Shown here: in pieces, positions 341 to 21,960 of the stretch
Numbering within the stretch: position 1 is the first letter of the stretch
How the letters are laid out: the number at the start of each line of letters is the position of its first letter
Assembly (NCBI GenBank): GCA_016212295.1
Contig: JACRGO010000139.1
Coordinates: 1 to 21,960, forward strand
Origin: Nitrospinota bacterium
Lineage (GTDB): Bacteria > Nitrospinota > Nitrospinia > JACRGO01
Length of the DNA stretch: 21,960 bases
Reading direction: 5' to 3'
The notes under the pieces: generated by a model
The model's input: only the letters and a program-made list of their open reading frames with translations
Told to the model about the DNA's origin: nothing
The model's database searches: none
Position numbers and translations under genes: made by a program

Positions 341-371
341 TTTTTTTTTACACACCCTAAATCATAGCGCG

Positions 372-508
372 GCATGTCCGCAATCAAAATAAATTTAGAT
401 GTATTCAAACGTTCGATAATATTATTACATTCAGAAATTTACGTTTCCGCTTGAAATAAAATCAGCGTTGAATGCTTCAAGAGAAATTTATTTTGATTGC
501 GGACATGC
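372..508. repeat. Inverted repeat A/A': perfect 25-base arms, 87-base spacer
   Basis: Arm A (372-396, starting GCATGTCCGCAATC) is the exact reverse complement of arm A' (484-508). With one extra base on the left the match extends into the GCGC that flanks both arms. The 137-base unit could be a MITE-like element, an invertible segment, or in RNA a very stable stem. It interlocks with repeat B/B' because B lies inside it and B' outside. Confidence 0.85.
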
Positions 509-570
509 GCGCTCCAAGAAACGGTTGTAAAATTTGCGCGGACAACGCAAATTTCTGAACGTAATAATAT
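419..570. repeat. Inverted repeat B/B': 21 of 22 matching arms, interlocked with A/A'
   Basis: Arm B (419-440, starting ATATTATTAC) matches the reverse complement of 549-570 with one mismatch. A weaker continuation pairs 441-450 with 538-548. The order A-B-A'-B' is that of a pseudoknot and cannot come from one simple inverted duplication. B' ends one base before the AAGGAG ribosome-binding site of the gene at 584, so pairing of B with B' would directly adjoin that initiation region. Confidence 0.8.
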
Positions 571-583
571 AAGGAGAAACTTT

Positions 584-868
584 ATGCGAAGATTTTTGAT
601 TATTGTTTTGTGCGCCTTAGCGCTTGGGAACGCCGGAATTTTGTTTGCAGGAGACGCCGCGCCGGAAAAACAATACGGCCTCGCCCAATGGACGCTGGAA
701 GATAAGGAGCAATCTCCCCGGTCCGCTGCTGAAGAAAAGCATGGACTTGGCCAGTGGACGCTGGAAGGCAGGGAACAAGAGCGGTCTGGTTCCACGAAGG
801 AGGAGCATGGCCTAAGCCGGTGGAGTTTGACGGACAAGGCGCAAGGCCAGAAGCAAAAGGAAAGCTAA
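584..868 (+). CDS. Small secreted protein with three 22-residue GL..W repeats
   Basis: This 94-residue protein starts at ATG 584, which follows AAGGAG at 571-576; the frame is open further upstream but only this start has a ribosome-binding site. Residues 1-22 form a signal peptide (RR, then a hydrophobic stretch ending LFA), so export is expected. The mature part is three diverged copies of one unit at residues 28-43, 51-65 and 73-87, with pattern E-x-(H/Y)-G-L-x-x-W-(T/S)-L-x-x-(K/R)-x-Q. GL recurs every 22 residues exactly (66 bases). Between units the chain is charged and Ser/Gln-rich, and the tail is Lys-rich. I do not recognise the family. It sits alone, convergent with the oxidase operon, behind the interlocked repeats and a possible FNR-type promoter, which hints at redox or oxygen control. 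No catalytic motif is visible. Confidence 0.75.
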   Translation: MRRFLIIVLCALALGNAGILFAGDAAPEKQYGLAQWTLEDKEQSPRSAAEEKHGLGQWTLEGREQERSGSTKEEHGLSRWSLTDKAQGQKQKES

Positions 869-12090: not shown

Positions 12091-12165
12091 CAGTGACGAG
12101 TTGCCAGTTGCCGGTTATCAGTTATCAGTTACAATTGTCAATTGTCAATTGTCAATTGTCAATTT
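12091..12165. repeat. Heptanucleotide repeat tract in front of gldG
   Basis: The gap reads as ten consecutive 7-base units in one phase: cagtgac, gagttgc, cagttgc, cggttat, cagttat, cagttac, then four aattgtc, ending aattt. Both the diverged and the perfect units keep the 7-base spacing, and each perfect junction contains the palindrome CAATTG. It occupies essentially the whole region between the gldF stop and the gldG start, including the place of the ribosome-binding site. Confidence 0.85.
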
Positions 12166-13760: not shown

Positions 13761-13843
13761 GTCATTGGTCAATAGTCATTGGTAAAATGGAAGATATCTC
13801 AACACACCAATGACAATTGACAATTGACAATTGACCATTGACA
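13761..13843. repeat. Heptad repeat tract forming a hairpin before the DUF4340 gene
   Basis: Left arm 13761-13783 (gtcattg gtcaata gtcattg gt) pairs with 13806-13828 (accaatga caattga and so on) at 20 of 23 positions. The right side continues as 7-base units (caattga three times, then ccattga). It is the same repeat family as at 12091-12165 but arranged as an inverted pair. It covers the initiation region of the next gene. Confidence 0.8.
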
Positions 13844-16595: not shown

Positions 16596-17195
16596 CTATA
16601 AAAGATGAAACCGCCTTAAAACGTTGGCTATTTTTTCGTCTTCCTTGGAAAGCTCCCTCAAGGAATCTATTAATCGCGCGAATTTGCTTCCGTCGCGCTC
16701 CCCGACGCCGATCTCCCGTTCCATGGCGACAATCTTTTCCTCCATGGGTTTCATTAAGGTCCTCCTGTCCCAGATAATATATCCGAACAGGGCCAGGAGA
16801 ATGGACATAATAAAACCAAGAGCCCACCTCATGTCATCGAACCGCTTATCAACCTGTTCGAACCGTTTGTCCACCTGCTCGAACCTGGTATTCATATCCA
16901 ACCTTAACTCATCGAACCGCTTATCTACCTGCTCAAACCGCTTATCAATCTGCTCAAATCGCTTATCTACCTGCTCAAACCGCTTATCTACCTGCTCAAA
17001 CCGCTTATCAACCTGCTCGAATTGCTTATCAATCTGCTCAAACCGCTCGCCGAAAGCCTTAAGCGTTGCCTTTATTTCAGCAAGGCCCTCGATAATTTCC
17101 CTGTCGCTGATTCTTGGGGCCGGCTCCACGGCGAAACTAGGGGCGCTGCATAAAAAAAACGCGAAAAACAAAAGGGTTATTGTTAATTTTTTCAT
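16596..17195 (-). CDS. Coiled-coil membrane protein built of RFEQVDK heptads
   Basis: From ATG 17195 (TTG 17204 is an alternative) the product is 199 residues. A signal peptide (MKKLTITLLFFAFFLCSAPSFA) is followed by a short linker, then about ten consecutive 7-residue units of type RFEQVDK. A variant stretch RFDELRLDMNT interrupts them once. Phe and Val or Ile occupy the heptad core positions, as in a long parallel coiled coil. After it comes one membrane helix (FIMSILLALFGYIIWD) and a charged helical tail. Proteins with this plan occur in many bacteria without a defined role. It is transcribed toward the operon to its left and lies 71 bases downstream of the chemotaxis gene, so it may share its transcript. 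Confidence 0.78.
   Translation of the reverse strand: MKKLTITLLFFAFFLCSAPSFAVEPAPRISDREIIEGLAEIKATLKAFGERFEQIDKQFEQVDKRFEQVDKRFEQVDKRFEQIDKRFEQVDKRFDELRLDMNTRFEQVDKRFEQVDKRFDDMRWALGFIMSILLALFGYIIWDRRTLMKPMEEKIVAMEREIGVGERDGSKFARLIDSLRELSKEDEKIANVLRRFHLL
16838..17050 (-). repeat. 21-base tandem repeat encoding the coiled-coil heptads
   Basis: Within the gene, units such as CGCTTATCTACCTGCTCAAAC repeat head to tail with few changes. The central units are near identical, while the outer ones have drifted (gttcgaa, ctcgaa). The repeat is a multiple of three, so gain or loss of a unit would keep the frame and only change coiled-coil length. Confidence 0.85.
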
Positions 17196-19666: not shown

Positions 19667-21960
19667 ATGTTGCCTTTTAAAAGAAATTTATCGGGAATAA
19701 GCCCGGCCTTTGGCCTTGTTCTGATTGTCCTCTTTCTTTTTGCCTGCCTGCCTTTCATTGACCCCGCCTTCGCGAAAGAGAAAGGGACAAAATCCACCGG
19801 AAAAAAACAAAAGGCGTCCCTTGTCGTAATCACCAAGGACCAGGACGGTCAGCCGGTGGCGGCCCCTTTCTATTTAGACGGGGACTTGCAGGACAAAAAG
19901 CAGGGACAATTGACGTTATCTCTCTCCCCCAATAAATACACTGTCAAATTCGGCGGCCTTGACGGGTATTCATTGAAAACGCCTAAGAAAGACACCCAAA
20001 AAGTTGTTCTTAAAAAAGGGCAGTCCAAGCAGGCAATTGCCGTGTATTCAAAAAACATAACGCAAGGGACCGTCTCCGCGCTGAAGGAATCAAAACCCTT
20101 TGATATTGGAGGAGATAAAAAGGGCATCACAGCCTCGTACGAAACCATTGATTCCAACAGCCTCTATTTCCACGGCTCAAAGGTCACGGGCAAGAGCAGC
20201 GACGTTGCTCACGAGTCCGGCCTGACTGACGTGTCCCAGATCACAGACGCCTCGCAATATATCTTCCAGTCGGATTCAGTCGGGCCGGTGAAAAAAGGTG
20301 AACTTGTCATATACCATAACACTTCCACTGACTCTTACGGGGCCATTAAGGTTGACGATATCCACTCCTCAGGCGGAGGCCTTGCCGCTCCATACAAGGC
20401 AGCGGGCTCCACAACTATTGATATCACATGGTATTTCCTGGCTAAAGCCGAGGGGGAGACCATCGATTTCAGTGCGGCTGACTGGGAGGCCCCAACGACC
20501 CACGCGTCGCCGGACGGAGGAAAGCTGTCCAAATCCTGGCCCGTGACTCTAAGTTGCTCCGACAATTCAGGGGGGTCCGGCTGCGCCGCCACCTACTATA
20601 CCACGGATGGCAAGAATCCGGACTTTTCATCCGACGTCTATACCGCCCCCATTCCCATATCAGGCAGCGTCAAGCTGAAATTTTTCAGCGTTGACGGATA
20701 CGGAAACGAGGAACCGGTCCAATACGCCGCCTATTCGGTTGCCTCCTGCTCGAACGCGCGCGCGCAAGCGGCCTGCGAAGTCGTGGAGGGATGCGCCTGG
20801 GACGGCAAAAAAAGAAAATGCTCCGAAAGCCAGGCGGATAGCGGCGCGACTTTGTGCCAAACCCACGCTACCCCGGCGACCTGCGAGACGGAGGGAGGCT
20901 GCTATTGGGACTATATAACGCAAGACTGTTACGCCTCCCTGCCTTGCGCGTCATTTGTCTCCAAACTAGGCTGTGAAGCAGATTCAAATTGCGCATGGAA
21001 CGCCCTGACCAGGATCTGCTCGGAAAAAAACGCAACCGTGACGGAAATCGCTCCGGGAACGATTTGTTCAGATAACGCCACAATGGCGGCCTGCTTCTCG
21101 GTCGGGTGCTCCTGGGACTACTTTGCCAATTCTTGTTTTGATTATACGAGCCAGACCCCTTGTTCAGTTAAAAAGACGCCCGCCGAATGCTCCTCGGCCG
21201 GGTGCTCCTGGAACAAAGCGACAGATGCCTGTTCCGATTCCATGAGCTGGGGGTCCCCATGTTTTTATTATGTCACGGAACCCACTTGCGCTGAAGGCGG
21301 CTGCTACTGGGATTCTTCCTCTGGTTCCTGCTCCGGCTACCAGGGGGGCGGCTGCTCAGTCTATGGGACCATGGCCACATGCAATATCATGCCCGGATGC
21401 ATGTGGGATTATGCAGCCAATGTATGCATATCCACTTTTACAGGCATAAAGGGAGGGACCACTGGAGGGGGTGGGTGCTCAGTCTATGGGACCATGGAAA
21501 CGTGCAATACCATGCCCGGATGTTGGTGGAATCCGGTGGCTAATTCCTGCCTCGGCCAAACGGGCGGGACAGCGGGCGGCAAATGTTCCGCCATGATAAC
21601 GCATCCAACGTGCATTGCCATGCCCGGATGTTGGTGGGAAACGGCGGCCAATGTGTGTTTTGACGCAACCGGCGGAACTACCGGCGGCGCAACAGGAGGA
21701 ACCACAGGCGGGGCTGCCGATGGAACAAGCGGGGGCGGCTGTTATGCCAATGTGACAATGGCTACATGCAATACCATGACCGGCTGCTGGTGGGACTCAG
21801 CAATCAACGCGTGCTTCGGCGGCGCAACCGGCGGGACCACGGGAGGAACGACAGGCGGGACAGCGGCTTGCTCAACATATATAACCATGCCTACTTGCAC
21901 AACCGGAGGATGTTTCTGGGACTATGCAACCAATGTCTGCTCATCCACACAGACAGGAGG
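19667..21960 (+). CDS. Very long secreted protein with cysteine modules (3' end beyond window)
   Basis: An uninterrupted frame runs from ATG 19667 (AGGAG at 19652) to the window edge, at least 764 residues. Residues 1-36 are a signal peptide ending DPAFA. Residues 48-128 look like a PEGA or carboxypeptidase-regulatory beta domain (SLVVITKDQDGQPVAAPFYLDG). A region without a known match follows (130-275). Residues 275-358 match the chitobiase C-terminal-like domain (SPDGGKLSKSWPVTLSCSD, YYTTDGKNP, VDGYGNEEP). From Cys361 on it is a series of at least eleven four-cysteine modules, C-x(6-9)-C-x(3-5)-(G/N)-C-x-W-x(6-7)-C. The later ones are separated by Gly/Thr linkers such as TGGTTGGTTGG. The regular Cys pairs suggest disulphides and a surface or secreted location. 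The ligand and family are unknown, and the C terminus, where an anchor or sorting signal would be, is not visible. Confidence 0.8.
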   Translation, partial: MLPFKRNLSGISPAFGLVLIVLFLFACLPFIDPAFAKEKGTKSTGKKQKASLVVITKDQDGQPVAAPFYLDGDLQDKKQGQLTLSLSPNKYTVKFGGLDGYSLKTPKKDTQKVVLKKGQSKQAIAVYSKNITQGTVSALKESKPFDIGGDKKGITASYETIDSNSLYFHGSKVTGKSSDVAHESGLTDVSQITDASQYIFQSDSVGPVKKGELVIYHNTSTDSYGAIKVDDIHSSGGGLAAPYKAAGSTTIDITWYFLAKAEGETIDFSAADWEAPTTHASPDGGKLSKSWPVTLSCSDNSGGSGCAATYYTTDGKNPDFSSDVYTAPIPISGSVKLKFFSVDGYGNEEPVQYAAYSVASCSNARAQAACEVVEGCAWDGKKRKCSESQADSGATLCQTHATPATCETEGGCYWDYITQDCYASLPCASFVSKLGCEADSNCAWNALTRICSEKNATVTEIAPGTICSDNATMAACFSVGCSWDYFANSCFDYTSQTPCSVKKTPAECSSAGCSWNKATDACSDSMSWGSPCFYYVTEPTCAEGGCYWDSSSGSCSGYQGGGCSVYGTMATCNIMPGCMWDYAANVCISTFTGIKGGTTGGGGCSVYGTMETCNTMPGCWWNPVANSCLGQTGGTAGGKCSAMITHPTCIAMPGCWWETAANVCFDATGGTTGGATGGTTGGAADGTSGGGCYANVTMATCNTMTGCWWDSAINACFGGATGGTTGGTTGGTAACSTYITMPTCTTGGCFWDYATNVCSSTQTG
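20747..21960 (+). repeat. Array of at least eleven four-cysteine coding modules
   Basis: Eleven modules can be read in one frame; each has Cys pairs around a G-C-x-W core. Modules 1-6 are diverged and directly abutted. Modules 7-11 are more alike (CSVYGTM.TCN.MPGC.W, NVC) and spaced by Gly-Gly-Thr runs of varying length (ACCGGCGG-type codons). The gradient suggests recent amplification toward the right, continuing past the window edge. Confidence 0.82.

Follow-up and report, generated by a model that had tools for sequence, protein, structure and literature searches.

The PATEs of Haloquadratum walsbyi carry palindromes near their ends, lie at a conserved 5' target of 4-5 nt and generate no target duplication, and forms in which the core has been deleted and only the termini persist are also known (PMC3119063). 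For single-strand transposition of the IS200/IS605 type, a fixed 5' target, unlike ends, subterminal hairpins and the absence of a duplication have been described (PMC7290912). Here we analyzed a 21,960-nt stretch of DNA from a Nitrospinota bacterium (GCA_016212295.1, contig JACRGO010000139.1; hereafter the window), in which two long inverted repeats interlock upstream of a small gene. We consider that positions 367-571 probably represent a PATE-type non-autonomous mobile element, moved by a Y1 transposase, whose self-nested composite form spread as a unit.

An inverted-repeat search of the window detected the arms A/A' (372-396/484-508; 25 nt, 25/25 identical) and B/B' (419-445/544-570; 27 nt, 25/27 = 93%), which follow each other in the order A-B-A'-B'. 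The interlocked arrangement reported in the first-pass annotation was thus reproduced, and its limits for B and B' (419-440 and 549-570) fall inside ours. The longest exact inverted repeat was 25 nt, compared with a mean of 9 and a maximum of 16 in 200 mononucleotide shuffles of positions 340-600, and for each strand the predicted RNA fold of the region was 6 sd lower in energy than dinucleotide shuffles. The contact between B' and a ribosome-binding site was likewise borne out: B' ends at 570, directly followed on the plus strand by the Shine-Dalgarno (SD) sequence AAGGAG (571-576), which touches the element, and by an ATG at 584. The open reading frame that begins there (584-868, plus strand) encodes a protein of 94 aa that is predicted to be secreted and contains three GLxxWTLxxK-type repeats; it lies outside the element, as the neighbor of the insertion. 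No Pfam family scored above the cut-off for this protein, and a search of Rfam returned nothing above the gathering cut-off, its sole matches being to microRNA precursor hairpins below that threshold. Other repeats in the window comprise inverted CAATTGT-type tracts (12132-12164 and 13806-13843) on both sides of an ABC_transp_aux (GldG-like) gene, a 21-bp tandem repeat (16830-17051) whose translation, (FEQVDKR)n, is part of a predicted membrane protein of 202 aa, and cysteine-rich repeats with Gly/Thr-rich linkers (21344-21861) that continue up to the contig end.

We compared positions 340-600 with the source genome (3.74 Mb, 237 contigs, 90.5% complete) and found approximately 40 further places, most of which matched nearly the whole of a 210-bp stretch with 79-94% identity. 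Among 30 aligned copies the ends were sharp, the left one reading GCGCG directly after CATA and the right one AATAATATA, and the flanks were unrelated; 26 of the 28 copies checked were intergenic. The feature first delimited as 367-570 is therefore real and its true extent larger, since the boundaries common to the genomic copies are 367, immediately after a CATA at 363, and 571 (plus strand, ~205 bp). The copy search that had been suggested thus yielded an amplified unit, which runs from A to B'. The proposed 137-base MITE bounded by A and A' was correct in that the element is mobile, and incorrect in its limits and in the target duplication expected of it. The alternative of an invertible segment found no counterpart in the data, as the stretch from A to A' was inverted in 0 of the 30 aligned copies. 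The ~205-bp unit recurs about 40 times in the genome and is thus not peculiar to the 94-aa gene as a leader. Patterns for single ends matched ~213 A-type (left) and ~198 B-type (right) sites, with 0 matches for a reversed control pattern. Across 60 genomes (the source genome and its relatives), the right end occurred 144 times in the source genome versus once in the sole congeneric genome searched, and the left-end hairpin motif occurred 211 times here, compared with low copy numbers (1-9) in six further members of the class. The right-end 25-mer was absent from a collection of genome contigs, and a 23-mer was absent from a collection of viral contigs. The amplification is limited to one lineage, and the family is almost certainly a dispersed mobile repeat inserted at CATA.

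The target was apparent from the left flanks. In 113 non-nested left ends, the CATA tetranucleotide (363-366 in the window, plus strand; the putative left cleavage site) was conserved at 82-91% per base and the adjoining GCGC at 93-96%, and positions farther to the left were near random. One empty site was found. At L040, where the host site is another repeat of the same genome, the occupied sequence reads ATATTTCATA, then GCGCGAC...AATAATATA, then AAAACACACC; its empty counterpart at L107 reads ATATTTCATA joined to AAAACACACTT, with no base duplicated or lost and with the CATA present. This host repeat (AACCACGAATTAACACGAATATTTCATGAAAACATAC...) is itself dispersed (L040, L107, L108, L127, L128 and L038) and served here as the empty-site control. 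No target duplication was observed in 28 paired copies, a set that includes two composites of other than A-B-A'-B' form (L095 and L108); copies are many, and the target duplications that would have marked an ordinary MITE are absent. A 3-bp ATA duplication is compatible with the empty site, and we rejected it because, of 19 copies that deviate from ATA on one side, 0 show the matching deviation on the other. We also considered a Xer/dif-like junction, since the joined ends look dif-like by eye, and dropped it because the insertions are dispersed. At the window locus, for which the congeneric genome (G001) offered no alignable counterpart, the site before insertion would have been ...CCTAAATCATAAGGAGAAACTTTATG.

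Besides the A-B-A'-B' form, the stretches around ~110 sites, on each of which we mapped the A and B arms, contained left-only pieces, right-only pieces and short A...B' elements. The last of these represent a simple element, with a left end (GCGCGGCATGGCCGCAACCAAAAT..., starting with GCGCGRC) and an unlike right end (...GCGGAAAACGCAAATTTCTGAACGTAATAATATA, finishing with GTAATAATATA); GCGCGRC... and ...GTAATAATATA are unrelated, so that terminal inverted repeats are absent from simple copies. In L099, the left body (CATA followed by GCGCGGTATGGCCGCAAACAAAATAAATTTCGATGGATTCAAA) runs directly into the right body (GAAGCAGTTGAAAGACTTGCGTGGAAAACACAAATTTCTGAACGTAATAATATA) without an intervening segment; L036 is likewise simple and uninterrupted, and L086 is a more diverged simple copy. 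When the window is read against these copies, the outer element consists of a left end with arm A (367-396, plus strand), which in the consensus contains the small hairpin GCGGC-ATG-GCCGC, a left body (397-418, plus strand) that in L099 and L086 continues into the right body, a right body (514-529, plus strand) and a right end with arm B' (544-571, plus strand), whose last bases are TATA, the putative right cleavage site. The predicted right-end hairpin AAATTTGCG-CGGACAA-CGCAAATTT (530-554, plus strand) competes with B-B' pairing. The intervening segment (419-512) reads on the minus strand as left end, body and right end, arm A' (484-512) being its left end and arm B (419-445) its right end, and it aligns over its full length with the outer element; when the middle parts alone were aligned, the signal lay mostly in the last ten bases, without which 136 of 2000 shuffles were equally good. 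In the subfamily that includes L030 and L050, the inner copy retains its CATA (GCGCTATG on the plus strand), and the window subfamily has TGGA at that position. These observations suggest that the A-B-A'-B' order very probably arose by inverted insertion of one element into another, A [B A'] B'. The first-pass annotation had concluded that two separate events, or selection for structure, were needed; inverted insertion of an element with unlike ends into another copy would give this order, so that a single event suffices.

The elements are non-coding and no longer than 205 bp, too short for a transposase. Terminal-only forms also exist, as 46-nt fusions joined at AAATTTC and 36-nt fusions joined at GCGCGG. 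Folded as DNA, the left hairpin has 5 bp (-5.8 kcal/mol; 17/200 shuffles equally good) and the right hairpin 9 bp (-8.1 kcal/mol; 6/200 shuffles equally good), both of which are modest statistics, and the small left hairpin is weaker where the left end has the GRC variant.

The survey also revealed other arrangements of these ends. The same 27-nt left end heads other repeat bodies, for example GGAAAACAAAAYCCCAAATGACAAATAGCAAATTAC... (L116:6203, L092:113-314, L082:4101-4313, L134:2590, L046, L052 and L086), and in L092 and L082 an inverted left end is also present at the far side of these bodies; there seem to be several repeat families with one end in common. Right-end variants in L096, L128 and L115 have an additional palindrome (CCTGTCTGCGTGCGACGCACAGGCAGG) within the loop of the hairpin, and the sole right end of the congeneric genome (G001 C649, L059:1455-1535) is of this kind, which indicates that the variant is older than the burst. 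Left-only (e.g. L118, L122 and L133) and right-only (e.g. L080, L112 and L094) pieces outnumber full elements; each has one perfect end and a variable internal break, and they possibly result from cleavage of the long palindrome. We rejected the idea that such halves are the two ends of long cargo-bearing elements, because the order and orientation that it requires were not overrepresented in the sampled loci (4 downstream, 3 upstream and 7 opposite).

The unlike ends, the subterminal hairpins, the fixed 5' target and the absence of a duplication together match PATE-type elements and single-strand transposition. In the mechanism that we propose, the element would insert 3' of CATA without duplicating the target, and an HUH/Y1 transposase (IS200/IS605- or RAYT-like) would move it as single-stranded DNA, cutting at CATA on the left and at TATA on the right. 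A basic element would once have inserted, inverted, into the middle of another, and the nested composite would then have spread to ~40 places in the lineage. The simple form resembles PATEs in having near-end palindromes and no terminal inverted repeats, in lacking a target duplication, in its 5' target of 4-5 nt, in being too short for a transposase, and in the occurrence of terminal-only core deletions and of elements inserted into one another. It differs from them in its bacterial host, in that a cognate IS605-type transposon was not found in the genome, in ends that are unrelated to known IS as far as tested, and in that the form seen most often is a self-nested composite, which appears to have spread as a unit. 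Likewise, it shares with the IS608 type of IS200/IS605 elements the insertion 3' of a fixed tetranucleotide, the unlike ends, the subterminal hairpins and the lack of duplication; in contrast to these, it has no internal tnpA or tnpB, and no flanked tnpA was found in the genome.

We further analyzed the arms for covariation and the leader for alternative folding. In the 30 aligned copies, double changes in A/A' and B/B' pairs exceeded those in shuffles (20 pairs versus 9.3; 51 cells versus 17), and in L050 and L037:4452 several mirrored changes of the arms occurred together. Pairing of arms within a copy was in modest excess of that between copies (0.87 versus 0.81 for A; 0.91 versus 0.88 for B). 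Such blocks of mirrored changes fit hairpin-templated correction between the arms, and may also stem from selection for structure. The aligned copies are paralogues, so that covariation by itself is no proof of an RNA function. In the window leader, the A-A' state was predicted to be favored over the B-B' state by ~22 kcal/mol, and the predicted unpaired probability of the SD sequence differed little between the two (0.58 versus 0.37). The covariation-aware check advised earlier, run here on paralogous copies, was positive for the arms. The suggestion that B-B' pairing gates translation gains no support from folding. On these predictions, an RNA switch in the window leader is unlikely.

The contact with the SD sequence is not confined to the window. 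For 12 of 88 right ends, an SD sequence with a start codon and an open frame began no more than 10 nt away, compared with 1/113 for left ends, 4/522 for intergenic CATA and 1/192 for CATAA sites; the limit of 10 nt was picked after inspection of the data, and against a background of ATATAA sites the excess was weaker (P = 0.009). The genes behind these right ends include hemB, clpP, clpA, a MiaB-like radical SAM gene and YceI. A promoter within the right end was detected at chance level. These contacts allow the possibility, which we regard as rather unlikely, that on top of its mobility the family was adopted as a 5' leader, in which the right end (hairpin and A/U-rich tail) in front of the SD sequence aids mRNA stability or translation and copies are kept by selection. 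The excess over the first three controls, the presence of hemB, clpP and clpA among the contacted genes and the covariation of both pairs of arms are in its favor. However, apart from the post hoc limit and the weaker ATATAA comparison, folding predicts no switch, and a 36-nt remnant (L108) contacts the SD sequence before clpA, so that the contact is independent of the interlocked arms, which are dispensable for it. Selection could account for the excess; so could, in whole or in part, a preference of the element for CATA sites that have A-rich sequence behind them. That the right end forms a portable 5' leader, repeatedly set against the SD sequences of co-oriented housekeeping genes and changing their translation or mRNA stability in concert, is a somewhat more doubtful proposal.

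As for the enzyme, a search of the genome with the Pfam Y1_Tnp model identified two genes, with scores of 97.9 and 78.7 bits against the NCBIfam model for REP-associated transposases (cut-off 80). A copy of the right end lies 13 nt past the stop codon of one of them, C179, which at first made this gene a convincing parent transposase; we rejected this as proof because C179 has no left end and has the motif GGGGTCA on its upstream side, as do most of the relatives examined in other genomes. An upstream GGGGTCA characterizes those Y1 transposases that are TIR-associated and have a C-terminal helix-turn-helix (PMC3733652, PMC6006769), and the right end near C179 is therefore probably a chance neighbor. 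No element ends were found within ~1.4 kb of the other gene, C211. In this genome (~90% complete), we found no TnpB and no Y1 or other transposase gene flanked by both ends; since an IS605-type transposon with related end palindromes was not found either, we filed the family as PATE-like. From the insertion rules, it is nonetheless likely that a Y1 enzyme moves the family, and the cognate enzyme may have been lost or may be encoded in the tenth of the genome that is missing.

The two Y1 scores bear on another explanation, which we regard as unlikely: that a REP-associated tyrosine transposase spread the left and right ends as a pair of REP-like palindromes, and that A-B-A'-B' is a BIME-like cluster and not an IS-like element. 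Indeed, REP, BIME and REPIN sequences with their RAYT (TnpA-REP) are similar in their short palindromic units, in hundreds of intergenic copies as singlets and clusters and in the presence of Y1 genes; moreover, low-copy single left-end hairpins that bear a conserved tag are present across the class, and each end is found alone at many sites. However, the GTAG/CGTC tag is absent here (the consensus is CATA followed by GCGCGRC...), the left and right ends are unrelated, and the unit is a sharp 205 bp. Neither Y1 gene has both ends around it, and C179 appears to be of the TIR type.

It is improbable that two overlapping classical MITEs, A...A' and B...B' (each ~150 bp), lie one inside the other. 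Classical bacterial MITEs are likewise small, dispersed, non-coding and mostly intergenic, some copies (e.g. L030) have perfect A-A' inverted repeats of 34 bp, and A-type ends flank another body on both sides in L092 and L082. The family differs from such MITEs in lacking inverted repeats at its outer ends and target duplications; furthermore, simple A...B' elements exist, A-less B..B' pieces lack the pattern expected of a family, constant outer ends set in unrelated flanks on both sides, and the second MITE would have to span the boundary of the first exactly. Finally, a regulatory pseudoknot or alternative-structure leader particular to the 94-aa protein, to which the adjacency of B' to the SD sequence, the stable folding and the covarying arms might point, is very hard to reconcile with a unit that lies in either orientation beside many unrelated genes, with a gene neighborhood to which nothing in the congeneric genome could be aligned and with the predicted dominance of A-A' pairing and its small effect on the SD sequence.

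We thus describe a new family of PATE-like non-autonomous elements, the most visible form of which is a self-nested composite. When an element with unlike ends inserts once into a copy of itself, a pseudoknot-like A-B-A'-B' repeat can result, and this pattern can mislead searches for RNA structure, as the arms covary without a demonstrated RNA role. The excess of insertions directly against ribosome-binding sites is testable. The burst is limited to one lineage (144 right ends versus 1 in the sole congeneric genome searched), and it makes the rules of single-strand transposition readable from sequence.
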